Source of the DNA: Leucobacter sp. CX169
GTDB lineage: Bacteria; Actinomycetota; Actinomycetes; Actinomycetales; Microbacteriaceae
DNA: 64,000 bases
Reading direction: 5' to 3'
Assembly: GCF_017161405.1 (NCBI RefSeq)
Contig: NZ_CP071051.1
Coordinates: forward strand, 1,550,001 to 1,614,000
Shown here: positions 38,033-57,207 of the stretch, piece by piece
Numbering within the stretch: position 1 is the first letter of the stretch
Layout: each line of letters starts with the position of its first letter
Notes under the pieces: generated by a model
Seen by the model: the letters and a program-made list of their open reading frames with translations, nothing else
Databases searched by the model: none
Told to the model about the DNA's origin: nothing
Program-made: the position numbers and the translations under genes

Positions 38033-38069
38033 ACGGATGTCACTGCTCGTCTTGAGGAAAGGCATCCAC

Positions 38070-39581: not shown

Positions 39582-39621
39582 ATCGCCGGAAGATGCGGGT
39601 TCAGGCCATGGTTTCTGAGGT

Positions 39622-39656
39622 GTGGGGTTGCATGTTCCGCGAACATGCAACCCCAC
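39622..39656 (+). terminator. Perfect 16-bp hairpin after the VirB4-like gene
   Basis: Arms GTGGGGTTGCATGTTC (39622-39637) and complement (39641-39656) with a 3-nt loop. No long T-run. It may serve both the transfer operon and the convergent merR-like gene. Confidence 0.75.
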
Positions 39657-39694
39657 CGGTGAACACTTGGGCCGGGCGTGCATCTGCCGCAGGC

Positions 39695-40060
39695 TTATAC
39701 GTCGCGGAGGCGCGCGATGAGTTCGTCGGCGGCGTCCAGTTGTTTCGCGAGTTTCTCGCGACGCTCCTCTGCGTCGGTCACGAACGTATCCAGCGCTGCG
39801 CGCGCGGCGCTGTCTGACGGATCATCCGCCAGTGCGTCAGCAGCGGCGAGGACTTCGCCCATCTGGTCGAGGGAGAACCCGAGCGGCTTCATCCGGCGGA
39901 TCAGGAGGAGCCGCTCGACGTCGGCGTCGGTGTAGAGGCGGAACCCGCCACTGGTGCGGTCGCTCGGGGAGACGAGCCCGATCTCGTCGTAGTGGCGGAG
40001 GGTGCGCAGCGACAGGCTGGTGCGCTCAGCGACCTCGCCGATATGGATCGTTCCTGCCAT
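39695..40060 (-). CDS. MerR-family regulator of the SulP transporter
   Basis: 121 residues from ATG 40060 with GAGGAG upstream. Winged helix-turn-helix: IHIGEVAERTSLSLRTLRHY, then DEIGLVSPSDRTSGGFRLYT, the classic MerR start. A coiled-coil dimer helix follows (ERREKLAKQLDAADELIARL). The short C-terminus lacks the paired cysteines of mercury or copper sensors, so the signal is unknown. It diverges from the SulP gene across a promoter with the 19-bp spacer bound by MerR proteins. Confidence 0.88.
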   Translation of the reverse strand: MAGTIHIGEVAERTSLSLRTLRHYDEIGLVSPSDRTSGGFRLYTDADVERLLLIRRMKPLGFSLDQMGEVLAAADALADDPSDSAARAALDTFVTDAEERREKLAKQLDAADELIARLRDV

Positions 40061-40081
40061 CGGGTACTCCTCTGCCTCGAT

Positions 40082-40116
40082 TTGGCACCCAACCCTCACG
40101 TAACGGTAGAGTTGGG
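40082..40116 (+). promoter_or_regulatory. MerR-type promoter/operator of sulP
   Basis: TTGGCA (40082-40087) and TAGAGT (40107-40112) are 19 bp apart, the long spacer typical of MerR control. The imperfect dyad CCCAACCCTCAC (40088-40099) / GGTAGAGTTGGG (40105-40116) lies across the spacer and -10. Confidence 0.75.
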
Positions 40117-40178
40117 TTTGGCGGGCTCCGACCTCGACCGCCGTCACCCTATTTTCCCGCACCTCTCTGGGAGGCAGA

Positions 40179-41684
40179 ATGAGCGCGCCCGCACGCGACA
40201 AGGAACGCTACTGGCCTCGGCCGACCGTGATGGATGTGTTCCGTTCGCCGAAGCTGTTGACGAAGGAAGTCCTCGCGGGTATGGTGGTCGGCCTCGCGCT
40301 CATCCCGGAGGCCATCGCGTTCGCGATCGCCGCAGGCGTGCCGGCCGAGGTGGGCTTGTTCTCCTCGATCGTGATGGCAATCTCGATCGCGTTCCTCGGT
40401 GGGCGGCCCGCGATGATTACCGCGGCGACCGCAGCGATCGCGCTCGTCATCCGGCCGGTCGCCGACGAGTACGGCCTCGACTACCTCATCGCGACCGTGA
40501 TCCTCGGCGGCATCTTCCAGATCGTTCTCGGCCTGCTCGGTGTCGGCAAGCTCATGCGGTTCATCCCGCGCAGCGTGATGGTCGGGTTCGTCAACGCCCT
40601 CGCGATCCTCATCGCTGTCGCCCAATTGGAGCATTTCACCGGCGCGTCCTGGCTGATGTACCCGATGATCATCGTCAGCATCCTGATCCTATGGCTCTTC
40701 CCGAAGCTCACGAAGGCTGTGCCCGCGCCTCTGGTGGTCGTGATCGTAATGACCCTCGCGGTGTGGCTGCTGAACCTCGATGTGAAGACCGTCGGCGGTC
40801 TCGGCGAACTGCCCGGCGGCCCGCCGATGCCGTTCTTCCCCGATGTACCGCTCACCTTCGAGACACTGCAAATCATTGCCCCGTATGCCCTCGGCATGGC
40901 CGCGGTGGGGCTCATGGAGTCACTGATGACCGCGAAGCTCGTGGACGACATCACCGACACGCACTCGAACAAGACCCGCGAGGCGATGGGGCAAGGCGGC
41001 GCGAACATCCTCTCTGGCCTCTTCGGTGGCATGGGTGGCTGCGCGATGATCGGGCAGACCATGATCAACGTGCGCGCCTCCGGCGCCCGCACCCGCGTCT
41101 CCACGTTCGCCGCCGGCGTGTTCCTCCTGATCCTGGTGTGGTTCCTCGGCCCGATAATGAACCTGATCCCCATCGGGGCACTGGTGGCGATCATGTTCAT
41201 GGTCGCGTTCCTCACCTTCGACTGGCACTCCATCGCACCCTCCACGCTGAAGCGGATGCCCAAGAGCGAGACGATCGTGATGCTCGTCACCGTCATCCCG
41301 GTGCTCATCACCCACAACCTCTCCGTCGGGGTCATCATCGGCGTGTTCGTCGCCGCGATCCTGTTCGTGCGCCGCGTCGCCCACTTCACCACCGTCACCC
41401 GCACCTTCAGCGCTAACGAAGACACGGCGCACTATGAGGTCGATGGCGAGCTGTTCTTCGCGTCCTCGAACGACCTGACCACCCAGTTCGAGTACGCCGA
41501 CGACCCGAAGCGTGTCGTGATCGACATGTCGAAGTCGCACGTGTGGGACGCCTCGACCGTCGCAGCGCTCGATGGAATCGAGCAGAAGTACCGCGAACAC
41601 GACATCGAGGTCGAGATCATCGGCTTGAACGAGGCGAGCGGAACCTTCCACGCACGATTGAGCGGGAACCTGCCCTCACACTGA
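40179..41684 (+). CDS. SulP-family anion transporter
   Basis: 501 residues with GGGAGG before the ATG. Ten to eleven helices with GLALIPEAIAFAIAAGVPAE (the SulP sequence near the first helices) and GLFGGMGGCAMIGQTMINVR. A C-terminal STAS domain runs from about residue 410 (DGELFFASSNDLTTQFEYAD, KRVVIDMSKSHVWDASTVAA). It transports sulfate, bicarbonate or similar anions. Its position with MerR control beside arsenate and chromate genes suggests an oxyanion role; the substrate is not proven. Confidence 0.9.
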   Translation: MSAPARDKERYWPRPTVMDVFRSPKLLTKEVLAGMVVGLALIPEAIAFAIAAGVPAEVGLFSSIVMAISIAFLGGRPAMITAATAAIALVIRPVADEYGLDYLIATVILGGIFQIVLGLLGVGKLMRFIPRSVMVGFVNALAILIAVAQLEHFTGASWLMYPMIIVSILILWLFPKLTKAVPAPLVVVIVMTLAVWLLNLDVKTVGGLGELPGGPPMPFFPDVPLTFETLQIIAPYALGMAAVGLMESLMTAKLVDDITDTHSNKTREAMGQGGANILSGLFGGMGGCAMIGQTMINVRASGARTRVSTFAAGVFLLILVWFLGPIMNLIPIGALVAIMFMVAFLTFDWHSIAPSTLKRMPKSETIVMLVTVIPVLITHNLSVGVIIGVFVAAILFVRRVAHFTTVTRTFSANEDTAHYEVDGELFFASSNDLTTQFEYADDPKRVVIDMSKSHVWDASTVAALDGIEQKYREHDIEVEIIGLNEASGTFHARLSGNLPSH

Positions 41685-41736
41685 CCCGACTGCGTGCTCG
41701 GCTCATGCAAGGCTCATCGGCCGTCCGCCGCGCTGG

Positions 41737-41770
41737 ACGGGAGGGCCAGCGACTACTCCTGCCCTCCCGT
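41737..41770. terminator. Terminator between convergent sulP and ars operons
   Basis: ACGGGAGGG (41737-41745) pairs with CCCTCCCGT (41762-41770). Confidence 0.65.
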
Positions 41771-41776
41771 TCAGAG

Positions 41777-42196
41777 TTACGACATCGCGGCGCTGAGCTC
41801 GCTGGCGAGGCGCAGGACGCGTTCGGCGATCTGATCCCGGATCGCCCGCGTGCGGTCGCCGCCGCCGACGTCGGATGCAGCCTGGTCTTCGAAGGTCCAG
41901 GTCTCGATCGTTCCGGCCATGCCGTCGACCGGGGCGACCTTCGCCTCGTCGCCGAGCACGATGACCCGATCCACGCTGCGGAGGATCTCGGGATCGATGG
42001 GCTTCGGATACTCGCCCTCCATCGACGCACCGACCTCGACGATCGCTTCCTCGGCGAGGGCACTAAGCGTATCGCCCGGCGCAGTACCGGCCGAATAGAC
42101 GGTGATGGCGTCGCCGGCGTGCTGCCGCATGAGCGCGGCGGCCATCTGCGATTTGCCGCCGTTCTTCTTGCAGACGAACAGCACCGACGCGCTCAT
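41777..42196 (-). CDS. arsC: LMW-PTP-fold arsenate reductase, mycothiol type
   Basis: 139 residues. The active-site loop is VLFVCKKNGGKSQMAA: the nucleophilic Cys and Asn are kept, but the usual Arg of C-x5-R is Lys. I recall this NGGKSQ form from the arsenate-mycothiol transferases of corynebacteria. It would reduce arsenate through a mycothiol adduct. The start overlaps the stop of the upstream arsC (ATGA). Last gene of the seven-gene operon. Confidence 0.82.
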   Translation of the reverse strand: MSASVLFVCKKNGGKSQMAAALMRQHAGDAITVYSAGTAPGDTLSALAEEAIVEVGASMEGEYPKPIDPEILRSVDRVIVLGDEAKVAPVDGMAGTIETWTFEDQAASDVGGGDRTRAIRDQIAERVLRLASELSAAMS

Positions 42197-42615
42197 GCGC
42201 TGGCCGCCTCGGTGCTCGCGGGCTCGAGGGAGGCGATGAGTTCCTGGATGCGGCGTTTGATGTCGTCGCGGATCGGACGGACAGCGTCGATGCCCTGGCC
42301 CGCGGGGTCATCGAGCTTCCAATCCTCGTAGCGCTTGCCGGGGAAGAACGGGCAGGCGTCGCCGCAGCCCATCGTGATGACGACATCGGAGTCTTGCACG
42401 GCGTCGGTGGTGAGGATCTTCGGGGCCTCGCCGCGGATGTCGATGCCCTCTTCGAGCATCGCCTCGACGGCGACGGGATTGATTTGGTCCGCGGGGATCG
42501 AGCCTGCCGAACGGACCTCGATGCGGTCGCCCGCGAGGTGGCGGAGGTAGCCTGCGGCCATCTGGGAACGGCCGGCGTTGTGGACGCAGACGAACAGGAC
42601 GGTGGGAGTAGACAT
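42193..42615 (-). CDS. arsC: Arsenate reductase, canonical LMW-PTP type
   Basis: 140 residues. VLFVCVHNAGRSQMAAGYLR holds the P-loop C-x5-R-S; ITMGCGDACPFFPGKRYEDW carries the resolving cysteines and the family's downstream signature. It reduces As(V) to As(III) for export by Acr3. It is translated 27 nt after chrA and is coupled to the following arsC. Confidence 0.92.
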   Translation of the reverse strand: MSTPTVLFVCVHNAGRSQMAAGYLRHLAGDRIEVRSAGSIPADQINPVAVEAMLEEGIDIRGEAPKILTTDAVQDSDVVITMGCGDACPFFPGKRYEDWKLDDPAGQGIDAVRPIRDDIKRRIQELIASLEPASTEAASA

Positions 42616-42642
42616 GAGGGTTCTCGTTTCCGATCGGGTCGG

Positions 42643-43857
42643 TCAGGTGAGGGTGGTGGCGAGGATGCCGCCTGCGGCTCCGATGATCACGACGATCCAG
42701 GGCGGGAGCTTCCACGCGACGAGCAACACGAAGCAGACCAGCGCGAGTGCGAAGGTGGGCGGGGTGAGGATCGCGGTGGTGAACACGGGTGTGTAGAGGG
42801 CGGCGGCGAGGATGCCGACGACGGCCGCGTTCGCGCCCCGCATGATGGCCTGAACCCGCTCGTGGTGCTGCAGGCGGTTCCAGAACGGCAGCACGCCGAT
42901 GAGGAGGAGGAAGCCGGGCAGGAAGATCCCGGCCAGCGCGATGCCCGCCCCCGCCGCCCCGCCCGGGCCGACGTCAGCGGCGCCGCCGAGGAAAGCGGCG
43001 AGGGTGAACAGCGGGCCGGGCACGGCCTGGGCTGCACCGTATCCGGCGAGGAAGTCCGCGTTCGTGACCCAGCCGGGATCGACGACGCCGGATTGCAGGA
43101 GCGGGAGCACGACGTGCCCGCCGCCGAATACGAGCGCTCCGGCCCGCGCGAACGCATCGAACAGGGCGACGCTGTCGTTGCCGGTGACGGCGGCGAGGAT
43201 CGGCATCCCGGCCAGGATTGCGACGAACAGGGTGAGCGCGGCGATCCCCGCGGCCCGGGTCACCGGGAACCGCACCGCTGTCGCCGTGTTCGCGGCGGGT
43301 GCGCGGCAGACGAAGTATCCGGCGATCCCGCCGAGGACGATCGCCATGATTTGGCCGAGCGATCCGGCCAGCAGCAGCGCGGCGAGGGCTGCGACGGCTG
43401 CGATCGCGGCGCGCTGCCGGTCCGGGGTGAGTGTCTTCGCCATGCCGAGGACGGCCTGCGCGACGATCGCGACCGCCACGATCTTCAGCCCGGCGAGGAT
43501 GCCTTCCCCGATGGTGCCGGTGAACAGGGCGGCGCCGGAGGCGAAGGCGAGCATGAGGGCCGCGGACGGGAGCGTGAAGGCGATGAATGCGGCCAGCGCG
43601 CCCCGGTATCCGGCGCGGTGCAGGCCGATGCCGAACCCGACCTGGCTCGAGGCCGGGCCGGGAAGGAACTGGCACAGCGCGACCAGGTCGGCGTAGGCGC
43701 GGTCGTCCATCCAGCGTCGGCGTTCCACGATCTCGGTGCGGAAGTAGCCCAGGTGCGCGATCGGCCCGCCGAACGAGGTCACCCCGAGGCGCAGGAACAC
43801 CCGGAACACTTCCCACGCCGACCCGCGCACCGGCGCACGTCGCGTCTCGCTTGTCAT
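42643..43857 (-). CDS. chrA: Chromate transporter ChrA (long-chain)
   Basis: 404 residues, two homologous halves. FLRLGVTSFGGPIAHLGYFR and WMDDRAYADLVALCQFLPGP make the N-terminal CHR signature; FGGGHVVLPLLQSGVV and FLAGYGAAQAVPGPLFTLAA repeat it in the C-terminal half. About ten helices. ChrA exports chromate. Its start overlaps the arsR/arsC stop (ATGA), so chromate export is built into the arsenic operon. Confidence 0.93.
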   Translation of the reverse strand: MTSETRRAPVRGSAWEVFRVFLRLGVTSFGGPIAHLGYFRTEIVERRRWMDDRAYADLVALCQFLPGPASSQVGFGIGLHRAGYRGALAAFIAFTLPSAALMLAFASGAALFTGTIGEGILAGLKIVAVAIVAQAVLGMAKTLTPDRQRAAIAAVAALAALLLAGSLGQIMAIVLGGIAGYFVCRAPAANTATAVRFPVTRAAGIAALTLFVAILAGMPILAAVTGNDSVALFDAFARAGALVFGGGHVVLPLLQSGVVDPGWVTNADFLAGYGAAQAVPGPLFTLAAFLGGAADVGPGGAAGAGIALAGIFLPGFLLLIGVLPFWNRLQHHERVQAIMRGANAAVVGILAAALYTPVFTTAILTPPTFALALVCFVLLVAWKLPPWIVVIIGAAGGILATTLT

Positions 43858-44858
43858 GCGCCGTCACCGTCGACGGGAACGCACAGCTCGGCGAGCAGGC
43901 CACGGACGCGGGCCTCGATGTCAGCGGCGATCGCCGCAACGCCGTCTTCGGAGGCGAGGGCGGGGTCACCGACAGCCCAATCTTCGTAGCGGACGCCGGG
44001 GATGATCGGGCACACGTCCCCGCAGCCCATCGTGACCACGACGTCCGCGGCGCGGACGGCGTCGTCGGTGAGCGGCTTCGGGAACGCGGCCGCGGCGTCC
44101 TGCTCGCCTTCGATGTCGGCGAGGATCGAGCGCACGTGCGGGTGCACCTCGGCCGCTGGCGTCGACCCGGCCGACCGGGCAACAACCGCACCGCCGGAGA
44201 GCTGATTGACGAGGGCGGCGGCGAGCTGAGAACGGCCCGCGTTTGCGACGCACACGAACAGCACCTGCGGCATCCCCGTTTCGCGATCCCGTGTGAGGTC
44301 GGCGAGACGCTGACGGGCGAAACGTTCGGTGAGCGGGATCATATGCTGGGTGAGCTTCGCCGAGCGGACGAGACCCGCGAACGACTCGCGCACGATCGTG
44401 ACGACGAGGTTGCGGTTCAGGTGCGTCATCTCGTCGGCGAGCTCGGCGGCGAGGTGCTCGACCTTCGCGTCGAGGGCGGCCAGTGCCGTCGCGCGGTCTT
44501 CCTGCTCGGCCTGCGCGTCGGCGATCGCGGCGGGCGCGAACGCGTCCAGCAGCGCGGTCACGGCCTGCTTCCGCGCCGGCAGGATGCTGTAGTACACCCA
44601 GGTGCCGCGCCGCTCGGAGGCCAGCAGCCCGGTGTCCTTGAGCTTCTTCAAGTGATGCGAGACGGTGGGCTGGGAGACGTCGGCGAGCTCGGCGAGGTCG
44701 CACACGCAGGCCTCGCCGCGCGGGTCCGTCGCGATCGCCGACAGCATCCGCAGCCGGAACGGATCGGCCAGCGCCTTGAGCGTTGAAGCGACAGCATCGG
44801 CGGCGTCTTCGCCGATGACGTGCGTCGGGGTCGGTGTGCAGAGCTCGGTGGTGGTCAT
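43854..44858 (-). CDS. ArsR repressor fused to arsenate reductase
   Basis: 334 residues from ATG 44858 with GAGGG. Residues 20-105 are ArsR: EACVCDLAELADVSQPTVSH has Cys51 and Cys53 of the arsenite site in helix alpha3 and the recognition helix. Residues 130-195 are a three-helix bundle (VVTIVRESFAGLVRSAKLTQ, HMIPLTERFARQRLADLTRD) found in front of actinobacterial arsenate reductases. From about 198 a complete ArsC phosphatase domain follows (VLFVCVANAGRSQLAAALVN; TMGCGDVCPIIPGVRYEDW). The fusion would sense As(III) and reduce As(V) in one chain, and it sits mid-operon. Confidence 0.92.
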   Translation of the reverse strand: MTTTELCTPTPTHVIGEDAADAVASTLKALADPFRLRMLSAIATDPRGEACVCDLAELADVSQPTVSHHLKKLKDTGLLASERRGTWVYYSILPARKQAVTALLDAFAPAAIADAQAEQEDRATALAALDAKVEHLAAELADEMTHLNRNLVVTIVRESFAGLVRSAKLTQHMIPLTERFARQRLADLTRDRETGMPQVLFVCVANAGRSQLAAALVNQLSGGAVVARSAGSTPAAEVHPHVRSILADIEGEQDAAAAFPKPLTDDAVRAADVVVTMGCGDVCPIIPGVRYEDWAVGDPALASEDGVAAIAADIEARVRGLLAELCVPVDGDGA

Positions 44859-45958
44859 GATGCCCTCGATTTGGTGACGGCGGGAACCGCATACGGGTCG
44901 GTGTGGAACCACGTGCGGGCGGCCCAGAGCGAGACATAGACCAGACCCACGAGCACGGGCACCTCGATGAGCGGGCCGACGACGCCTGCGAGGGCCTGGC
45001 CGCTGGTCGCGCCGAAGGTGCCGATCGCGACGGCGATGGCGAGCTCGAAGTTGTTGCCTGCCGCCGTGAACGCGAGGGTCGTCGAGCGGGCGTAGTTGAG
45101 GCCGATGCCCTTCCCGAGCAGGAGGCCTGCGAACCACATGATCGCGAAGTACGCCAACAGCGGCAGCGCGATCCGGGCGACGTCCCACGGCTGCGACGTG
45201 ATCGCCTCACCCTGCAGCGCGAATAGCAGCACGATCGTGAACAGGAGGCCGTAGAGCGCGAACGGGCCGATAAAGGGGATGAACTTCGCCTCGTACCAGT
45301 CGCGGCCCTTCGCCTTCTCACCGAAGAAGCGAGTGAGGAACCCAGCCGCGAGCGGGACGCCAAGGAATACGAGCACGTTGATCGCGATCTGCCCGATCGA
45401 GATATCCAGGCCTTGGGAGTCGAGGCCGAGCCAGCCCGGCAGCACGGTGAGGTAGAACCAGCCGAGCAGCGAGAACGCGACGACCTGGAACACGGAGTTG
45501 ATGAACACCAGCACCGCGGTCGCTTCACGTTCGCCGCAAGCGAGGTCGTTCCAGATCACCACCATCGCGATGCAACGCGCGAGCCCCACGATGATGAGAC
45601 CGGTGCGGTACTCGGGCAGATCGGGCAGGAAGAGCCACGCGAGGGCGAACATCACGGCAGGCCCTGCGATCCAGTTCAGGATCAGCGATGAGACGAGGAG
45701 CTTTTTGTCTCCCGTGACAGCGGCGACCTTGTCGTAGCGGACCTTCGCCAGCACCGGATACATCATCACCAGCAGTCCGAGACCGATCGGCACCGAGATA
45801 CCACCGACCTCCATATGCGCGAGCAGGTCGGACAGTGCGGGGATGAAGCGGCCGAGGAGGAGGCCCGCGACCATGGCGAGCCCGATCCACAGCGGCAGCC
45901 ACCGGTCAAGGGTGGACAGCTTCGCCGGCATCGCGCGGGTCTGGGTTGCGGTGCTCAT
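44855..45958 (-). CDS. acr3: Acr3-family arsenite exporter
   Basis: 367 residues, ten helices. GLARCIAMVVIWNDLACGER holds the essential cysteine of Acr3, and TLAFTAAGNNFELAIAVAIG is the second family signature. It expels arsenite using the membrane potential. Overlaps both neighbours (ATGA). Confidence 0.95.
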   Translation of the reverse strand: MSTATQTRAMPAKLSTLDRWLPLWIGLAMVAGLLLGRFIPALSDLLAHMEVGGISVPIGLGLLVMMYPVLAKVRYDKVAAVTGDKKLLVSSLILNWIAGPAVMFALAWLFLPDLPEYRTGLIIVGLARCIAMVVIWNDLACGEREATAVLVFINSVFQVVAFSLLGWFYLTVLPGWLGLDSQGLDISIGQIAINVLVFLGVPLAAGFLTRFFGEKAKGRDWYEAKFIPFIGPFALYGLLFTIVLLFALQGEAITSQPWDVARIALPLLAYFAIMWFAGLLLGKGIGLNYARSTTLAFTAAGNNFELAIAVAIGTFGATSGQALAGVVGPLIEVPVLVGLVYVSLWAARTWFHTDPYAVPAVTKSRAS

Positions 45959-46281
45959 ACGATCAGCTCGTCAATCTTGCCCGCGATGATCGGCTTCGGG
46001 TGTGCGCCGATGAGCACGTCGACGCGCTCACCGCCCCGGTAGAACCCGAGAGTCGGGATCGACGTGACATCAGCAGCCATCGCGGTCTGCGGGTTGGCGT
46101 CCGCGTCGAGCTTCACGATCTTCACGCGGCCGTCGTACTCGCCGGCGAGATCGTCGAGGATCGGTGCGATCGCCTTGCACGGCCCGCACCAGGTCGCCCA
46201 GATGTCGACCACGACGGGGATGTCGGACTGCAGCACCTCGGCCTCGAACGTGGCGTCGGTGACGGTGATGGTCGCGCTCAT
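45955..46281 (-). CDS. trxA: Thioredoxin
   Basis: 108 residues with the active site WATWCGPCK at about 29-37 and the cis-Pro region VTSIPTLGFYRGG. It can recycle arsenate reductases of the ArsC2 type and other thiol targets. Coupled to trxB and acr3; placement inside an ars operon indicates a dedicated reductant supply. Confidence 0.95.
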   Translation of the reverse strand: MSATITVTDATFEAEVLQSDIPVVVDIWATWCGPCKAIAPILDDLAGEYDGRVKIVKLDADANPQTAMAADVTSIPTLGFYRGGERVDVLIGAHPKPIIAGKIDELIV

Positions 46282-47246
46282 GCGGACACCTCCAGAAGTT
46301 CGGTCTCGGTCTCGTCGGCAGGCAGGCCGGCGAGGAAATGCTGCGCGTCAAGGGCCGCGGCACAGCCCGTGCCCGATGCCGTGATCGCCTGCCGGTAACG
46401 GCGGTCGACGAGATCACCCGCGGCGAACACGCCAGGCAGGTTCGTCGCGGTCGACGGATGGTCGACGAGCACGTAGCCGTCGTCGTCGAGATCGACCTGC
46501 CCGGTCAGCAGCTCCGAGCGCGGGTCGTGCCCGATCGCAACGAACACGCCAGAGATCGGAAGGGCACGCTCGTCACCGGTGACGGTGTCGCGCAGGCGGA
46601 GCGCTTCGACGGCGTTCTCACCGACGAGCTCGGCGACTTCACTGTTCCAGGCGACCTCGATCTTCGGATCGGCGCGCACCCGCTCGGCCATGATCTTCGA
46701 CGCCCGGAAGTCATCACGCCGGTGCACGATCGTGACCTTCGACGCGAAGCGCGTGAGGAACAGTGCCTCTTCCATCGCGGAGTCCCCGCCGCCGACGACG
46801 GCGATCTCCTTCTCGCGGAAGAAGAAGCCGTCGCAGGTCGCGCACCATGACAGGCCGTGACCGGAGAGCCGAGCTTCCTCGGCGAGGCCGAGCTTGCGGT
46901 AAGCGGAACCGGTGGTGAGGATCACGCTACGCGCCTCGAACGTTTCGCCCGAGCCGGTCTCGATCGTCTTGACCTCGCCTGCGAGGTCGAGCCGGGTCGC
47001 GTCGTCGTAGACGATACGCGCCCCGAAGCGCTCGGCCTGCGCACGCATCGCGTCCATCAGGTCCGGGCCCTGCACCCCGTCGGTGAAGCCCGGGAAGTTC
47101 TCGACCTCGGTGGTCGTCATGAGCGAACCGCCGGCGGTCACCGAGCCAGCGACCACGACGGGAGAAAGCCCCGCCCTGGCCGCGTAGACCGCGGCCGTAT
47201 ACCCCGCCGGACCAGACCCGACGATCACCACCTGTTGCATCGACAT
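46278..47246 (-). CDS. trxB: Thioredoxin reductase
   Basis: 322 residues from ATG 47246 (MSMQQVVIVGSGPAGYTAAV). FAD motif GSGPAGYTAA, redox pair SWCATCDGFFF, NADPH motif VVGGGDSAMEEALFL and the C-terminal FAD loop GVFAAGDLVDRRYRQAITAS are all present. First gene of the operon. A longer frame upstream to 47345 overlaps the neighbouring gene and is not used. Confidence 0.94.
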   Translation of the reverse strand: MSMQQVVIVGSGPAGYTAAVYAARAGLSPVVVAGSVTAGGSLMTTTEVENFPGFTDGVQGPDLMDAMRAQAERFGARIVYDDATRLDLAGEVKTIETGSGETFEARSVILTTGSAYRKLGLAEEARLSGHGLSWCATCDGFFFREKEIAVVGGGDSAMEEALFLTRFASKVTIVHRRDDFRASKIMAERVRADPKIEVAWNSEVAELVGENAVEALRLRDTVTGDERALPISGVFVAIGHDPRSELLTGQVDLDDDGYVLVDHPSTATNLPGVFAAGDLVDRRYRQAITASGTGCAAALDAQHFLAGLPADETETELLEVSA

Positions 47247-47280
47247 GTCTCTATATTGACATTCATCGAACCAAGCGGCA
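47247..47280 (-). promoter_or_regulatory. Probable promoter/ArsR operator of the ars-chr operon
   Basis: On the minus strand TTGCCG, 17 nt, CAATAT lies a few nt before the trxB ATG. The spacer contains TTCGATGAATGTCAA, an AT-richer stretch of the kind bound by ArsR repressors. Tentative. Confidence 0.45.
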
Positions 47281-47319
47281 AGTCGGGTAGGTGCGTTCGG
47301 GAGGTTGTTCGCCGAGTGT

Positions 47320-49083
47320 TCACCCGGCGGAGTCGCCGCCGTCATCTACAGGACGGTCGACTCGGGCGGGATGCGCATAGCGGAGGGCGGTGTCGATGCC
47401 GATGCCGAACAGGTCGCAGATGCGTCGCACATCGCCGCCGGCCTGTTCGACCTCGTAGAGGATGCGGTCAGTGCGCAGCGCCTGCGCGGTGACTCCGGCC
47501 TTCTTCCAGGGGAAGTTCCGGCCCGGTGGCGACAGGCGCGGCGCGGTCTGGATCGTGACGAGCAGGTACGGGTTCTTCGTCTCGGGCCAACGCGTGGCGC
47601 GATGGTCGAGCCAGGCGGCCAGGCGCACCCGCACGGGTTCGGCGAGCGGGATCGTACGGCCGTCGGGCATGCGGAGTCTGCCGTCAATGATATCGGTGAG
47701 CTGGACGTGCTGCACCTGTTGCGTGGTGAGGGCGTGGAAAGCGACGAGGGCGACGGCCAGAGCGATTGCGGGGTCAGGGCTGGTGAGCGCGTCACGGATC
47801 GCGGACTTCTCCATCGGGAGCGGGATCGTGCGTTTGGGGCCGCGCAGCGGAATCGGTTTCGTCGGGTCGGCGAAGACGATCTTGCGGCCGCGCAGGATCG
47901 TGAACAGGGTGCGGAAGCCGAGCATCATCGTGTGCTGGCGGCTCGGATCATCCGGGAGCGCGTCGAGGATGTCTTCAGTGCTGATCCCGGTCAGGCTGGT
48001 GCGGCCTTCCTCGACCCAGCGGGTGATCGCGGGGAGGATGCCGTACATCTGCCCTTTCACGGTCATCGTGTCGCGGGGTTGACGGCGCGGCGTGGTCTTC
48101 GATCCGTCGGCCATGATGTCGCGCCAGAGTTCGAGCTGGGAGCGCATCGGCTCGGGCAGATGCCTGGTCTTACGGGCGAAGAGCTGCTCGAACGTCGGCA
48201 CTCGGTCGTCGATGAGGAGGTCGGCGTCGCCCAGGACTTCGATCGTGGAGCGGATGTTGCCGTCATCGTCGTAGCGGCGCATCGCGAGAATGTCGGAAGC
48301 ACGGAAGTGCAGATTCGCGCCGGGGAACACGAGCTGGAGAATCTTCAACGTGCGCCGCACCTGGTTCGTCTGCCGTTTGCTCCACGCATACTCGGCGGCG
48401 CGGGCGTACAGGAAGTGATCGGTGCGGGAGGTGATGTCGCGCAGCCGGATCTCGTTCGAGCGCTGCCGCACCCGTTCCGGGTCGGGATCCAGATCGAACA
48501 GCACCGGCTGGGTGCTCTCGGCGACCGGCGGCGGCGCGGCGACGAGCCGGATCGCTTGGCGCAGGCTCATCGCCATCGGCCGGTGCTTCTCGGCAGGCCT
48601 GCGGGGATCGTTCATCACGGCGAAGAACAGTTGCGCCCCGAACTTTCGCGGTGCGTCGAGGTCGAGCGGTTCGCCGAGTACTTGCAGCATCCGGGCGGTC
48701 TCCAGGCAGAGGCGGCAGTAGCCCTGCTCACCGATGGTGACGTCGCGATGGCACGAGACGCATTCGCCTTGCGGGTAGTGCTTGAACCACCAGCGGCACT
48801 TCGGGCACCGCCAGTTGCGATTCCGGTAGACGCCCCAGGCCAGGCAATCACGGCAGGACCCCATGAAGCCGGGACTTCCCGGATGGCAATGCGCGCACAA
48901 TCCTTGGCTGTAGTACTCGCTCGATCCGCATCTGCGGCATAGCGGCGGAGCGAAGGGGCCGCCGGGGATGCAGTCGTAGCAGTAGTCGACGCGAGGCTGG
49001 AGCCACGCGGCCGGTTTCACGCCGCACCCCGTGCAGGGCAGCGGCGGGCTCAGCGGCCCGTTCGGACCGCGTGCCGGACTCAT
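47320..49083 (-). CDS. Zinc-ribbon protein with degenerate tyrosine-recombinase C-terminus
   Basis: 587 residues. The first 125 hold eight CxxC pairs (CTGC, CYDC, CRRC, CAHC, CRDC, CPKC, CVSC, CRLC), making about four zinc ribbons. A helical core follows. The C-terminal 150 residues have the tyrosine-recombinase outline (AVALVAFHALTTQQVQHVQL in place of the Arg-I box; QALRTDRILYEVEQAGGDVR in place of HxLRH; a final Tyr in LRYAHP), but the first Arg and the His are missing, so it is unlikely to cut DNA itself. It overlaps the XRE gene start (ATGA), the third member of a mobility trio. Confidence 0.7.
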   Translation of the reverse strand: MSPARGPNGPLSPPLPCTGCGVKPAAWLQPRVDYCYDCIPGGPFAPPLCRRCGSSEYYSQGLCAHCHPGSPGFMGSCRDCLAWGVYRNRNWRCPKCRWWFKHYPQGECVSCHRDVTIGEQGYCRLCLETARMLQVLGEPLDLDAPRKFGAQLFFAVMNDPRRPAEKHRPMAMSLRQAIRLVAAPPPVAESTQPVLFDLDPDPERVRQRSNEIRLRDITSRTDHFLYARAAEYAWSKRQTNQVRRTLKILQLVFPGANLHFRASDILAMRRYDDDGNIRSTIEVLGDADLLIDDRVPTFEQLFARKTRHLPEPMRSQLELWRDIMADGSKTTPRRQPRDTMTVKGQMYGILPAITRWVEEGRTSLTGISTEDILDALPDDPSRQHTMMLGFRTLFTILRGRKIVFADPTKPIPLRGPKRTIPLPMEKSAIRDALTSPDPAIALAVALVAFHALTTQQVQHVQLTDIIDGRLRMPDGRTIPLAEPVRVRLAAWLDHRATRWPETKNPYLLVTIQTAPRLSPPGRNFPWKKAGVTAQALRTDRILYEVEQAGGDVRRICDLFGIGIDTALRYAHPARVDRPVDDGGDSAG

Positions 49084-49409
49084 AGTGGCGGGGCGGGCCG
49101 GTCATCCTTCGCGCCCAACCGTGGCGTCACTCGCGGTGTCGAACCGTTGGCCTCGCTGTGCTGCTCGAGCCTTCGCGTGCGCGCGCTGACCTTTTCCGGT
49201 TCGGGCACGAGGAGGTCTGTCGGCTGGCAGTCCAGGACGTGGCAGATCACGTCGAGATCATCAAGGCGGATCGTCGTCGGAGTGCCCGTCCACAGCCCCG
49301 ACATCTTGCCCTGGCTCATCTCCAACCCAGCGGCGGCGAGCATGCGCCGCAACTCCGCAGACTTCCAGATGCCGCGCTCAGCGGCCTGGACTCTCAGGTT
49401 CCACTTCAT
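49080..49409 (-). CDS. XRE-family DNA-binding protein of the recombinase trio
   Basis: 109 residues. Helix-turn-helix (ELRRMLAAAGLEMSQGKMSG, then IRLDDLDVICHVLDCQPTDL) as in Cro/C1-type regulators; basic disordered tail. It lies 3 nt after the recombinase gene and overlaps the zinc-ribbon gene. Likely a directionality factor or repressor for the trio. Confidence 0.85.
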   Translation of the reverse strand: MKWNLRVQAAERGIWKSAELRRMLAAAGLEMSQGKMSGLWTGTPTTIRLDDLDVICHVLDCQPTDLLVPEPEKVSARTRRLEQHSEANGSTPRVTPRLGAKDDRPAPPL

Positions 49410-49412
49410 CAG

Positions 49413-50492
49413 TCACGCCATCCCTTCGAATCGTTCCTCAACGCTCTTGTTCGCGTGCGCCCACGCATCCTCGATGTGCTGGCTCGAGACGTGGATGTAC
49501 TGCGTCGTCGTCGACAGCCACTGATGCCCGAGCAGTTCTTGGAGGGCTTTCAAGTCCATACCCGCCAGATACAGCGACGACGCGCAATAGTGCCGCAGCA
49601 CGTGCGGAGTCAGATCACCCGACCACGCAGGCAGAAACCGCTCGGTCGCACGCACCAGCCCGCGCCGGAGCACATCGTCGCTGGCCCTCCCCGTGCGGCC
49701 GAGCTCATGATCGAACCGTTCCGACGGGATCAGCGGCGCATCCGGGTCATCCCAATCCGGGCCGAACCTGTGCCGCACGTCGCCGAGCCACCAATCCATG
49801 AGCTTGTCGGCACCGTTGATCGCGGGAACCAGGCGCTGCTTCGAGCCGCGCCCGCGCGAGCCTTTCCCAAATCGGACATGCAGTTTCCCGAGCGTGCCGA
49901 GATCGGGCCGCCAGTCGCGAAGATCGAGTTTCGTGCTCTCCGTGATCCGCAGCCCGACTCGCCGCCACAACGACGCCGCGAAGTAGTTCCGCGCCGCCGG
50001 GAGAAATCGCCGCTCATCCTGCAACGAAGCCGCCCAGCCGCCGAAGAGTCGGTCGACCTCCGCGTCCGAGGGCGGGACGCGGACTTTGCCGAGCGACGAA
50101 CCCGATTGCCGGTTGTACTCATCGATGGGCTGCTCGATCACCCACCCGGTAAGCGCGTTGATGTCGGCCTGATACCGACTGATCGCAAAGTCGAAGAACT
50201 GGGCGATCACGCCCGCTTTGCCCGCACGCGTCGAAGCCGCAAGACCCGCTCGGCGAAGCCCGGCAAGAAACGCGTCCGCGTCGGCGGGCTTGACCTGCCA
50301 CAGCGGGATATTCACGTGCGAACGGAGCTCGAAGATCGCTGTTCGTGAGTGCGAGATGTAAGCGTCGCTGAGCCCAGCTGCGGCCATCGCGAGCGCGTAC
50401 TGGTCGATGATCTCCTGCTCGAAGTCCGCAGCATCTTCCTCGGACCGCCACCCGCGAGCGGTCCCGATACTCCGAACGACAGCGAGGTTCAT
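49413..50492 (-). CDS. Tyrosine recombinase of the trio
   Basis: 359 residues. Core-binding domain to about 140, then the catalytic domain: Arg in LWRRVGLRITESTKLDL, Lys in the LHVRFGKGSRG region, TPHVLRHYCASSLYLAG (HxxR), LLGHQWLSTTTQYIHVSS (H/W and nucleophilic Tyr). All catalytic residues are present. First gene of a coupled three-gene operon; repeats at 50511-50573 lie just upstream. Probably mobilises the metal island or was the vehicle that brought it. Confidence 0.9.
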   Translation of the reverse strand: MNLAVVRSIGTARGWRSEEDAADFEQEIIDQYALAMAAAGLSDAYISHSRTAIFELRSHVNIPLWQVKPADADAFLAGLRRAGLAASTRAGKAGVIAQFFDFAISRYQADINALTGWVIEQPIDEYNRQSGSSLGKVRVPPSDAEVDRLFGGWAASLQDERRFLPAARNYFAASLWRRVGLRITESTKLDLRDWRPDLGTLGKLHVRFGKGSRGRGSKQRLVPAINGADKLMDWWLGDVRHRFGPDWDDPDAPLIPSERFDHELGRTGRASDDVLRRGLVRATERFLPAWSGDLTPHVLRHYCASSLYLAGMDLKALQELLGHQWLSTTTQYIHVSSQHIEDAWAHANKSVEERFEGMA

Positions 50493-50769
50493 CAGCCCGC
50501 TACTTCAGCAATCCTGACCATGCATCAAGAATACGCCCGAATCGTCAGGAATCGTGATGGTTTGTCAGGAATCTTGATCCGGCGTGGCTTCGTTGCTACA
50601 GCGGGCAGGACGCACCTGAACCACATGGAAGCAACTCACGAAGACGCGGGAATAGAGACAAATCCGCCTAACCCCACAGCTCCCGGTAGCACTGCGGGCC
50701 TGTCATGAGCATGCAGGGCGCACCCATCTCGTCACCGCGAACGGTGTCGCCTGTAGGGGCGGCGGCGCG
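50493..50769. other. Right edge of the metal island
   Basis: Contains the repeats at 50511-50573, the promoter of the recombinase operon and the junction back to ICE backbone. The exact junction cannot be placed by eye. Confidence 0.4.
50511..50573. repeat. GTCAGGAAT repeats before the recombinase
   Basis: GTCAGGAATC at 50544-50553 and 50564-50573, exactly 20 bp apart, plus an inverted ATCCTGAC at 50511-50518. Each is near a TTGAT/GTGAT element. Candidate recombinase or XRE binding sites. Confidence 0.6.
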
Positions 50770-51925: not shown

Positions 51926-53692
51926 ATGTCTGGCCCTGTGCAGGCGAAACCCGCCAACGATCTCTTCATCAACCTCGCCCTCGGCACCCTCATTGCCGCT
52001 GCCGGCTTCACCGGACTCATAAGAATCGCAGGCAGCGTGGCAGCGTTCCTCAGTGGCCTGCCGGAACCCACCGAAGGGTTCACCTCCGGCGTCAGCGTTC
52101 TCGCCACCCCCACCGATCCAGGGAAAGCACTCGGTGCTGACGGCCTCAACCCGATCCTCTACTGGGTCATCGTCGCCCTGTTCCTCGGGATCCTCGGAAC
52201 GGCGGGCTTCTTCGTCTGGCGGGCAATCCACCAGGCCCACTCAAAAACCGACCCGCACTGGTTGGCCGGCACCGCAACAGCAGCCGAGGTCGCCCGGGTT
52301 GCCTCGGCAAAGGCCCTGGTAAAGAAGGCTGCAACGCTGCGGCCGTCACTGACCGGAAAGCCGGTCCCTGCCGATGTTGGATATCTCCTCGGCACCGGCA
52401 AAGGCGGGCAGGTGTGGGCGACCGTTGAAGACAGCATCCTGTTGATCGGTCCGCCCCGTTCCGGGAAAGGTTTGCATGTGGTCATCAACGCAATTCTCGA
52501 CGCGCCCGGTGCTGTCATCACAACCTCCACCCGCCCTGACAATCTCACCGCGACGTTGAAAGCGCGGGCACGGAAGGGAAAGGTTGCCGTCTTCGACCCG
52601 CAGCAGCTGGCCCCGGGACTGCCCGCGGGGATGCGCTGGTCACCGGTGAGGGGCTGCCAGGACCCGTTGACGGCGATGATCCGCGCGAAAGGCCTTGCCA
52701 CGGCCACCGGGTTCGGTGGTGTCCAAGATGCCGGATTCTGGGAAGGAAAGACCACTGCCGCAATCCAAGGACTCCTGCACGCGGCAGCACTGGATGGGCG
52801 CGGCGCGAGAACGCTCTACAAGTGGGCACTAAACCCGACTCTCGCCGCCGATGCTGTCCGGATCCTCTCCTCACACCCGGGAGCAGCGGAAGGATGGGCA
52901 GACTCATTGGATGCGATGGTGCAAGCCGACCCACGCACCAGGGACTCCATCTGGCAAGGCGTCTCCCTCGCGTTCTCCGCCCTGGCCGATCCTCGCGTCC
53001 TTGACGCGGTGAGCCCAGCCCCGGGCGAAGAGTTCGACCCGGAATCATTCCTGTTGGGTAACGGAACTTTGTACCTACTGGCGACGGGGGCCGGTGCTGG
53101 GGCGGCATCTGCGCTGGTGGCGGCGTTCATCGAAGACCTCGTCGAGACCGCGAGGAAGATCGCCGCACACTCACCGGGAGCCCGCATGGACCCACCTCTC
53201 CTGCTCGCGCTCGACGAGATCGGGAACCTCGCACCGTTACCCAGTCTGCCGACGCTGATGGCGGAAGGCGGCGGCACCGGCATCACCCCGCTGCCGGTGC
53301 TGCAGTCGCTGGCCCAAGCGCGGGAAAAGTGGGGCGAGAACCAGGCCAACGCGATCTGGGACGCCTCCATCGTGAAGATCATCCTCGGAGGCGCATCCAA
53401 CAGCAGAGACCTGCAAGACCTCGCCACCCTCATCGGGGACCGCGACGAAACCACCGACTCCATTACCACCGACGCGTACGGAGCGCACTCGAGCCAGCGA
53501 TCGATCCGACGCGTGCCGATCCTGCCACCCGATGTGCTGCGCACGCTCCCGTTCGGAACCGGGGTGGTGATGCTCCGCACCGCACGCCCCATCATCACGA
53601 ACTTGCGGCCTTGGCCGAACCGCGCCGACTCGAAGCAACTCCGCACCGACCGGGCCGAGATCGAGCAGACACTTCAGGGCCGTGCCAGATAG
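51926..53692 (+). CDS. VirD4/TraG-type coupling protein
   Basis: 588 residues with AGGAAGG before the ATG. Two membrane helices (about 15-38 and 78-98), then a RecA-like motor: Walker A LLIGPPRSGKGLHV (about 173-182), Walker B LLLALDEIGNLAPL, and QSLAQAREKWGENQANAIWD of the all-alpha/TraD-like part. It connects the relaxase-DNA complex to the channel. It stands apart from the rest of the secretion operon because of the metal-island insertion. Confidence 0.92.
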   Translation: MSGPVQAKPANDLFINLALGTLIAAAGFTGLIRIAGSVAAFLSGLPEPTEGFTSGVSVLATPTDPGKALGADGLNPILYWVIVALFLGILGTAGFFVWRAIHQAHSKTDPHWLAGTATAAEVARVASAKALVKKAATLRPSLTGKPVPADVGYLLGTGKGGQVWATVEDSILLIGPPRSGKGLHVVINAILDAPGAVITTSTRPDNLTATLKARARKGKVAVFDPQQLAPGLPAGMRWSPVRGCQDPLTAMIRAKGLATATGFGGVQDAGFWEGKTTAAIQGLLHAAALDGRGARTLYKWALNPTLAADAVRILSSHPGAAEGWADSLDAMVQADPRTRDSIWQGVSLAFSALADPRVLDAVSPAPGEEFDPESFLLGNGTLYLLATGAGAGAASALVAAFIEDLVETARKIAAHSPGARMDPPLLLALDEIGNLAPLPSLPTLMAEGGGTGITPLPVLQSLAQAREKWGENQANAIWDASIVKIILGGASNSRDLQDLATLIGDRDETTDSITTDAYGAHSSQRSIRRVPILPPDVLRTLPFGTGVVMLRTARPIITNLRPWPNRADSKQLRTDRAEIEQTLQGRAR

Positions 53693-55433: not shown

Positions 55434-57173
55434 ATGCGCGCTCGCACCCTCCAGGCTCCAGCCCAGAGTCAACAATCTCCTCTCGGAACAGCGACAAGAC
55501 CGCTCGGAGTTGCCCTCTCCGGCGAAGCCTTCGCCGTCTCCTATCTGCGCGTCTCTACCAAAGAGCAGGCTGAGAAAGGAGGCCAGGACGAAGGTTTCTC
55601 AATCCCTGCGCAACGGGACGCGAATCTGCACAAAGCCTCCCAGCTTGGGGCGGTCGTCATTGAAGAGTTCGTTGATGCGGGTGAGTCCGCGAAGAAGGCT
55701 GACCGGCCTGCCTTGCAGCGCATGATCCAGTACGTGAAAACCCACCGGGTCGCGTACTGCATAGTGCACAAAGTCGACCGCCTCGCACGAAACCGTGCCG
55801 ATGACGTCGCCATCCACTTCGCCCTCCAAGAAGCCGGAGTGATGCTGGTCTCAGCGACGGAGAACATCGACGAAACCCCTTCGGGGATGCTGCTCCACGG
55901 CATCATGTCCACGATCGCGGAGTTCTACTCGCGAAACCTCGCCACCGAAGTCGTCAAAGGGATGACCCAGAAAGCCATGACCGGTGGCACCCCGTCGAAG
56001 GCTCCACTCGGATACCTAAACACGCTCGAACGCGACGAACTCGGCCGTGAGGTCCGCTCCGTCGCACTCGACCCGGAACGTGCTCCGCTCGTGAAGTGGG
56101 CCTTCGAAGCATACGCAGCCGGAAACTACTCACTGGCGAAACTGACCGCTGAGCTCTTGGGCAGAGGGCTCATCTCCGTGCCAAGCCCGCGACGACCTTC
56201 GAGGTCGATCCCGCTATCTTCAGTGCATCGGATGCTGCAGAATCCCTACTACAAAGGGGACGTCGTCTACCGCGGGGTCCGTTACGACGGTGCCCACGAA
56301 CGGATCGTCGAGCCTGAAGTCTGGTACCAAGTGCAGTCCGTGCTCGCCTCGCACAACGCGTCCGGTGATCGCACGCAGAAGCACGACCACTACCTCAAAG
56401 GCAGCGTGTTCTGCCAGCAGTGCGGGGCGCGACTGATGGTAAACAAGACCAAAGCTCGCAACGGTGATATCTACCCGTACTTCGTCTGCCTCGGTCGTCA
56501 TCGAAAGCGCACCGACTGCACGCAAGCAGCGATCCTGACGACCGACGTCGAAGCGCTCATCGTTGATTACTACCAGCGTGTGCAGATCACGCCGGCTACT
56601 CGGGATGCGCTGCGCGGCATGCTCCACCACGAACTTGACCGCCTCACTAAGTCCTCGTCAACCGAGGTCGCCGACCTCACTCGCAGGCGTGCAAAGAACA
56701 TCACAGAGCAAGACCGGCTCCTCGAAGCGCACCTGAAAGATGCCTTGAGCTTGGAGCAGTTCGCGAAGTTCCAAGATCGACTCCGTGCTGAGGTCGCCGC
56801 GATCGATGACCGTCTTGCAGAGCACCACAACGACTACGCCGAAGCACGGCACCACATCGATGACTGTCTTGACCTTGCGGCCGACATTGGGCGGATTTAC
56901 GCCGGGTGTGACGACCAGAATCGACGCCTAGCGAACCAGGCGTTCTTTACTCGCATCCGCATTGGCGAGCACAAAGAGATAAAAGGTGAACTGGCGAAGC
57001 CATTCAACGTAATCCTCGACCCGGAAGTGCAGCGCGGAGCGGCTGCGTGGAGCGAGCAGGGCGACGGAGCGGAGACCGACGGCCGAACTGCGACACGCAC
57101 TAACGTGTCGCAGTTTCGAACGTCGAACATTGGGTGCCCCCGGCAGGATTCGAACCTGCGACCAAGAGATTAG
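55434..57173 (+). CDS. Large serine recombinase (ICE integrase)
   Basis: 579 residues with AAAGGTGG before the ATG. Resolvase domain with nucleophile Ser41 (AVSYLRVSTKEQ) and VHKVDRLARNRADDVAIHFA. Recombinase domain (GTPSKAPLGYLNTLERDELG, LQNPYYKGDVVYRGVRYD). Zinc ribbon GSVFCQQCGARLMVNKT...CLGRHRKRTDCTQ, and a coiled-coil (RAKNITEQDRLLEAHLKDAL). The last residues, GCPRQDSNLRPRD, are the translation of the antisense of tRNA-Arg, so the gene continues into the attachment site. Integration therefore supplies its stop codon. It excises and inserts the ICE. Confidence 0.93.
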   Translation: MRARTLQAPAQSQQSPLGTATRPLGVALSGEAFAVSYLRVSTKEQAEKGGQDEGFSIPAQRDANLHKASQLGAVVIEEFVDAGESAKKADRPALQRMIQYVKTHRVAYCIVHKVDRLARNRADDVAIHFALQEAGVMLVSATENIDETPSGMLLHGIMSTIAEFYSRNLATEVVKGMTQKAMTGGTPSKAPLGYLNTLERDELGREVRSVALDPERAPLVKWAFEAYAAGNYSLAKLTAELLGRGLISVPSPRRPSRSIPLSSVHRMLQNPYYKGDVVYRGVRYDGAHERIVEPEVWYQVQSVLASHNASGDRTQKHDHYLKGSVFCQQCGARLMVNKTKARNGDIYPYFVCLGRHRKRTDCTQAAILTTDVEALIVDYYQRVQITPATRDALRGMLHHELDRLTKSSSTEVADLTRRRAKNITEQDRLLEAHLKDALSLEQFAKFQDRLRAEVAAIDDRLAEHHNDYAEARHHIDDCLDLAADIGRIYAGCDDQNRRLANQAFFTRIRIGEHKEIKGELAKPFNVILDPEVQRGAAAWSEQGDGAETDGRTATRTNVSQFRTSNIGCPRQDSNLRPRD

Positions 57174-57207
57174 AAGGCTCTTGCTCTATCCCCTGAGCTA
57201 CGGAGGC
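57135..57207 (-). tRNA. tRNA-Arg (anticodon TCT)
   Basis: 73 nt, 5' GCCTCCG at 57207 to the discriminator A at 57135. Acceptor GCCTCCG/CGGGGGC (one G-U), D stem GCTC/GAGC, anticodon loop CTTCTAA, T arm GCAGG-TTCGAAT-CCTGC. One mismatch closes the anticodon stem (31-39). CCA is not encoded exactly (ACCCA). Its 3' half overlaps the recombinase frame, and its 3' end faces the ICE, so it is the right attachment site. Confidence 0.93.

Follow-up and report, generated by a model that had tools for sequence, protein, structure and literature searches.

Organization of the locus

Three adjacent genes on the minus strand of the window (the whole analysed stretch of 64,000 nucleotides) code for a tyrosine recombinase (Int), a small XRE protein and a 587-aa protein with eight CxxC pairs (ZnR). 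Together they constitute one operon, the recombination module within an integrative element of 11.1 kb that includes arsenic/chromate genes and is situated between the virB4 and virD4 genes of a type IV secretion system (T4SS). The features of the locus are:

38037-39581, plus strand: virB4-like T4SS ATPase gene, which hosts the insertion and whose last codons are element-derived (VirB4-like structure 4ag5, E 4.6e-7)
39522-39549, plus strand: target side, with the conserved virB4 codons FDTTQRM (TTCGACAC..ATGA) and 6 bp staying with the target (sequence comparison; the 6-mer tracks the backbone, not the element)
39550-50660, no strand: complete integrative element, 11.1 kb, in the virB4 3' end (equal span in L012, L013 and L138; abrupt identity loss at both ends; G731 empty site for an insertion of this kind)
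39550-39581, plus strand: element right end, terminal arm AAACCCGCAAGTTCAC, also the last virB4 codons (..TRKFTIPEG*) (sequence comparison)
39695-40060, minus strand: MerR-type regulator, cargo, start approximate (ORF list)
40179-41684, plus strand: SulP-family permease, cargo (family match below the curated cut-off)
41777-42615, minus strand: two ArsC-type arsenate reductases, cargo (ORF list)
42643-43857, minus strand: chromate efflux transporter, cargo (TIGR00937)
43854-44855, minus strand: ArsR-type regulator fused to an ArsC-type domain, cargo, start not fixed (ORF reading)
44855-45958, minus strand: arsenite efflux (ACR3-type) protein, cargo (ORF and synteny)
45955-46281, minus strand: trxA, thioredoxin, cargo (ORF and synteny)
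46278-47345, minus strand: trxB, thioredoxin reductase, cargo (TIGR01292)
47320-49083, minus strand: ZnR, 587 aa, eight CxxC pairs, predicted C-terminal tyrosine-recombinase fold without Arg-I and His (ORF, model, alignment)
49080-49409, minus strand: xre, 109-aa HTH_26 protein (ORF, Pfam)
49413-50492, minus strand: int, tyrosine recombinase, 359 aa, catalytic residues intact (ORF, Pfam, residue check)
50653-50660, minus strand: element left end, TAGAGACA on the plus strand and (A/G)TCTCTA on the int strand (166 bp upstream of the int start)
50661-50708, plus strand: probable displaced native virB4 3' tail, now outside the gene (compared with the empty locus L109/L137; exact parallel in L013 versus G731)
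51926-53692, plus strand: virD4/TraG coupling protein gene, beyond the other side of the element (Pfam)

The stop of xre and the start of ZnR overlap (ATGA), and a gap of 3 bp separates int from xre, in agreement with the coupling of the trio in one operon proposed in a preliminary description of this DNA. That description also spoke of a complete tyrosine recombinase and a small XRE protein, and both hold: Int matches the Pfam family Phage_integrase (E 4e-17) and has the entire catalytic set (R182, K210, H297, R300, H323 and Y332), and the XRE protein matches HTH_26 (E 2e-15). No relaxase was detected with Pfam/NCBIfam among the ORFs of the 39.55–50.66 kb region, i.e., the metal genes, the thioredoxin genes and the trio. 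As the element is without a recognised transfer gene, it presumably rides inside its host conjugative element.

ZnR and its predicted recombinase domain

The earlier count of eight CxxC pairs in ZnR is exact, and 15 of the 16 cysteines are invariant in 42 homologues, the remaining one being present in 41. The protein has no family match in Pfam or NCBIfam. An AlphaFold2 model built from 42 sequences is confident over much of residues 200–572, with a mean pLDDT of 73 and a pTM of 0.35 that leaves the domain packing uncertain. The leading matches of the model in the PDB are all tyrosine recombinases—XerA (1.6e-7), the integron integrase, lambda Int, Cre and Tn1549 Int—and the predicted fold is the two-domain one. 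The degenerate recombinase-like C-terminus suspected earlier, for which the lack of such a fold had been named as a refutation, is thus supported by the predicted structure, with XerA as its best match. A kinship of ZnR with Int at the level of sequence profiles was also considered and dropped, the match being non-significant (probability 0.2%); therefore, the recombinase claim rests on the fold and the motif spacing.

The active site is altered: in the 42 sequences, Thr occupies the Arg-I position in 39, the His of HxxR is replaced by Gln or Arg, and the third His by Leu, Ile or Met, with Arg-II and Tyr569 invariant in all 42. In tyrosine recombinases as a class, the loss of Arg-I is expected to abolish or cripple catalysis, and the same would apply to ZnR. 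Its recombinase domain is thus probably catalytically dead, with the retained Arg-II and Tyr leaving complete inactivity unproven. One possible but doubtful alternative is that ZnR binds DNA as a regulator in its own right, or is an immunity or targeting factor, and acts outside the recombination complex: the eight zinc-ribbon CxxC pairs, the loss of the catalytic Arg-I and both His, and the non-significant profile match to Int would be compatible with this, whereas the predicted two-domain tyrosine recombinase fold, the strict operon coupling with int and the precedents of GinC and Tfp (see below) fit a partner role. ZnR is accordingly viewed here as a likely structural or site-selecting, non-catalytic partner in recombination.

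Distribution and cargo of the trio

A scan of genome contigs with the ZnR alignment recovered 79 loci, nearly all from Actinomycetota isolates or MAGs, with a few from MAGs labelled otherwise; in the family of the window, ZnR occurs in 11 of 300 genomes. A search for the same trio elsewhere had been suggested in the preliminary description, and the order int-xre-ZnR recurs in 73 of the 79 loci, which argues that the arrangement is not due to chance. A convergent virB4 lies downstream in 52 loci and virD4 upstream in 53, at least one of the two being present in 68; of the 11 loci with neither, 7 have a flank shorter than about 2 kb on one or both sides. The trio is also found on plasmids of Arthrobacter, Paenarthrobacter, Pimelobacter, Pseudonocardia and Streptomyces. 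In its minimal form, seen on Arthrobacter and Streptomyces plasmids, the element is the trio alone (~3.4 kb), and because such trio-only elements occur, the arsenic/chromate genes of the window are cargo and the trio is not a fixed part of the backbone. The cargo is positioned between ZnR and virB4 and across the loci includes arsenic/chromate genes, MMPL and MFS exporters, a P-type ATPase, aldo/keto reductases and a glyoxalase.

Several loci depart from the single intact copy. A single virB4 site is occupied by two complete tandem trio elements in L029 (14398-17520 and 8633-11683) and in L168, and at the left junction of L138 a window-type element immediately adjoins the right end of another type of trio element, which points to stacking at virB4. 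The window's element is also found in decayed form: in L152 int is split by ~1.2 kb, and in L154 the frames of ZnR and xre are broken and int is only partly present. Finally, L147 (1547-5430), L151 and L153 have metal-resistance cargo between virB4 and virD4, partly in reversed orientation, with no detectable trio. Such trio-free cargo at this site counts against insertion driven by the trio; these loci are read here as decayed or non-autonomous elements.

Ends of the element and the virB4 junction

In each of the four copies that are complete (the window, L012, L013 and L138), 11,107 bp separate the fixed end motifs, and identity between the window and its relatives is lost abruptly at both ends. 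By-eye inspection of the end arms reveals a short motif common to both in inverted orientation. On the int side, (A/G)TCTCTA sits 166 bp (165–168) before the int start in most loci with that sequence, a spacing that holds across Int proteins ~60% identical; the remaining loci have left-end variants (e.g., TCTCCA or CCCCTA) or are missing the motif.

On the virB4 side, identity ends within virB4 and the element then encodes the last codons: in the window the gene ends in FDTTQRMSQ followed by the element-encoded ETRKFTIPEG*, such that the element's replacement for the virB4 3' end amounts to the new last 10–11 codons and a stop. As read from these codons, the right end restores the virB4 reading frame to its stop, by which virB4 is predicted to stay complete. 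The right arm starts 28 bp after TTCGACAC in divergent virB4 genes, and at the equivalent codon even in those that are only ~30% identical. The displaced virB4 tail of the window probably lies at 50,661–50,708, as judged from the 88%-identical relative G027 (L109/L137), in which virB4 runs straight into hyp50 and then virD4. Among 400 family genomes, none was found with a near-identical empty version of the window's own backbone, the nearest being 87–91% identical in virB4. The preliminary description had the block splitting VirB4 and VirD4 between 39.7 and 50.6 kb: the split is confirmed, but the limits have to be corrected to 39,550–50,660.

Empty sites and repeated insertion at one nucleotide

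Comparison with ICEs lacking the island, proposed earlier as a route to the junctions, recovered both these and an exact empty site. One ICE backbone is empty in G731 (L204), where the intact target reads CGCATGACCGGC|AAAGGCTAGAGCC, and is filled by three different trio elements in L013, in L002/L015 and in L072, all placed exactly at the bar. In the filled copies the insertion point is CGCATGACCGGC|AAAGGC, the same nucleotide for all three kinds of element. Beyond the left end, G731 is 99.5–99.8% identical to L013, L002, L015 and L072 over 610 bp, and on the virB4 side it is 99.7% identical to L013 and L002. No target duplication is apparent when filled sites are compared with G731, and in L013 the native virB4 tail KG* has been exchanged for ETRKFTIPED*.

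Similar pairs of states are found more widely. Among 40 virB4 loci extracted and compared in the family search, about 10 have the trio, 15 have virB4 followed by virD4 or the small hyp50 with no trio, and the rest have other inserts. In Arthrobacter/Paenarthrobacter plasmids without the trio, virB4 and virD4 overlap by 4 bp, and the strain ZXY-2 has one filled and one empty plasmid. These observations bear on whether the trio might be a fixed part of the conjugative backbone (e.g., for dimer resolution) with the metal genes alone inserted. Trios free of metal genes do exist, and most loci have the trio between virB4 and virD4, in many cases with no such genes; however, it is absent from close relatives with virB4 directly before virD4, and three different trios occupy one backbone. 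A fixed backbone role is barely credible in the face of the empty sites and was rejected. The distinct mobile unit between VirB4 and VirD4 envisaged in the preliminary description is instead favoured by the exact ends, the exact empty site and the repeated insertion, from which the element would appear to be mobile.

On the otherwise empty Arthrobacter plasmid of L199, the left-end sequence of the Arthrobacter-type element, AGCGAATAGAGAT, is fused in frame into virB4, possibly as an excision scar or a natural mimic.

Exchange between divergent backbones

The block in the window is ~97% identical over 12.4 kb to those of L012 (a Homoserinimonas MAG) and L013 (Microlunatus parietis), with protein identities outside the block of 64–66% for virD4 and 76–77% for virB4. 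On the int side, all three diverge directly outside GTCTCTA. L013 and L072, in turn, are 99.8% identical over 6 kb up to a shared TCTCTA, where they part into trios whose Int proteins are only ~64% identical. The alignments thereby establish independent insertions and an exchange of modules among divergent backbones. Exchange at a conserved locus might also be achieved by homologous recombination through the virB4/virD4 flanks, with no use of the element's own recombinase. This is very improbable, given that identity stops at the identical nucleotide without a flanking gradient, that backbone-identical copies differ by the element only, and that the left end at 166 bp and the right end in fixed register are preserved in ~30%-identical virB4 genes.

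The 6 bp at the int-distal end are common to 92% of 12 same-backbone/different-element pairs (a set with duplicate records of one genome and hence a smaller effective number) and to 8% of 63 same-element-type/different-backbone pairs. As they track the backbone and not the element, these bases would stay with the target, and the G731 empty site directly shows them belonging to it. A copy-out, strand-biased movement as in SE or Tn554 elements, with the donor copy kept, has some features to recommend it: the layout is similar, with a recombinase, a dead recombinase-fold protein and a small DNA-binding protein at one end and cargo behind, and a 6-bp stretch lies between the target arm and the element arm (PMC10214605). 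It is nevertheless rather unlikely, since 6 bp that follow the target are unlike the SE fingerprint; a fingerprint of that type, suspected from the window versus L109, was ruled out by the pairwise 6-mer comparison.

Proposed mechanism and relation to known elements

The trio is very probably the recombination module of an integrative element specific for the virB4 3' end in actinobacterial ICEs and plasmids. By conservative site-specific recombination at the virB4 tail, Int would join the left end TAGAGAYW and the right arm, which ends in AAGTTC, to a fixed point just after virB4 FDTTxRM, and the right end would bring the replacement codons and stop by which virB4 remains complete. XRE could have a regulatory role or promote excision, and ZnR, in which zinc ribbons accompany a probably dead recombinase domain, would contribute to structure or to the selection of the site. 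What goes beyond the preliminary description is the right end within virB4 that restores its 3' end, the single target nucleotide across divergent T4SSs and the exchangeability of the metal genes as cargo.

A described element that targets virB4 was not found in the open-access literature. Closest in habit are the streptococcal IMEs, which are likewise integrative and specialised on conserved ICE conjugation genes; they have serine integrases, disrupt traG, maff2 or snf2, and carry a relaxase (Coluzzi et al. 2017, PMC5357655), whereas in the trio element the recombinase is of the tyrosine type, the target is the 3' end of virB4, the gene is restored and no relaxase was recognised. The closest layouts are those of the SE, GInt, RIT and Tn554 elements. 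SEs of Gammaproteobacteria resemble it in a one-end operon of a recombinase, a non-catalytic recombinase-fold protein and a small protein, in exchangeable cargo and in not being self-mobilizable, but have catalytic IntA and IntB plus Tfp and Srap and place 6 bp of the donor as a fingerprint at the int-distal end (PMC10214605); the trio element has a single catalytic recombinase and an XRE protein in place of that set, and the fingerprint is not seen. GInts are site-specific too, with a recombination operon followed by variable cargo and a short other end, and include a non-catalytic recombinase-fold member, GinC; however, their four-gene ginABCD operon codes for three integrases and a small helix-loop-helix protein (PMC5385486), and by this gene-set description they are set apart from a trio of three genes, one coding for a zinc-ribbon protein. 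Both Tn554 and RIT also have several recombination genes in one operon, but Tn554 has catalytic TnpA and TnpB plus TnpC, as against a ZnR without Arg-I and both His, and RIT consists of three adjacent tyrosine recombinases, as against the HTH_26 middle gene of the trio. RIT elements have 34-bp terminal inverted repeats. The trio element thus falls outside the gene-set definition of each of these, and its earlier portrayal as comparable to but different from recombinase-in-trio elements is apt, with one catalytic recombinase, an HTH_26 middle gene and the zinc-ribbon ZnR.

It may be proposed, only tentatively, that these elements represent a new class of satellites living only in conjugative elements, with the ZnR pseudo-recombinase picking the virB4 tail, and that they move between co-resident elements and rewrite the VirB4 C-terminus, perhaps tuning host transfer. 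The main reading by itself names a route by which cargo (here arsenic/chromate resistance; elsewhere exporters, a P-type ATPase and reductases) could pass among unrelated ICEs and plasmids and leave these intact. The fixed, predictable insertion site allows unannotated cargo in actinobacterial conjugative elements to be delimited to the base, and the element renders testable the mechanistic question of the part that a zinc-ribbon recombinase with degenerate catalytic residues plays in choosing the site.

Additional observations

More divergent trios are situated within tad pilus gene clusters in L178 (pNOCA01; 5528-8794) and L177; in L178, 6 bp separate the ZnR stop from the end of a gene of the type II secretion F family that runs convergently, which suggests that other branches of the trio family may use other gene tails. 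A distant clade with 27–29% ZnR identity (L011, L175 and L176) resides on linear plasmids of Streptomyces, at a distance from T4SS genes, and the sequence conserved near its left end is another one (GTGCGACATCCCGTG).

In the window itself, a 471-aa ORF lies on the opposite strand between an SCO6880-family gene and virB4 (36526-37941), and a large serine recombinase ORF (55434-57207) runs into a tRNA-Arg gene on the opposite strand (57133-57207). As the same overlap is seen in the related ICEs of G027 (L137) and G050 (L136), it may mark the integration site of the host ICE.
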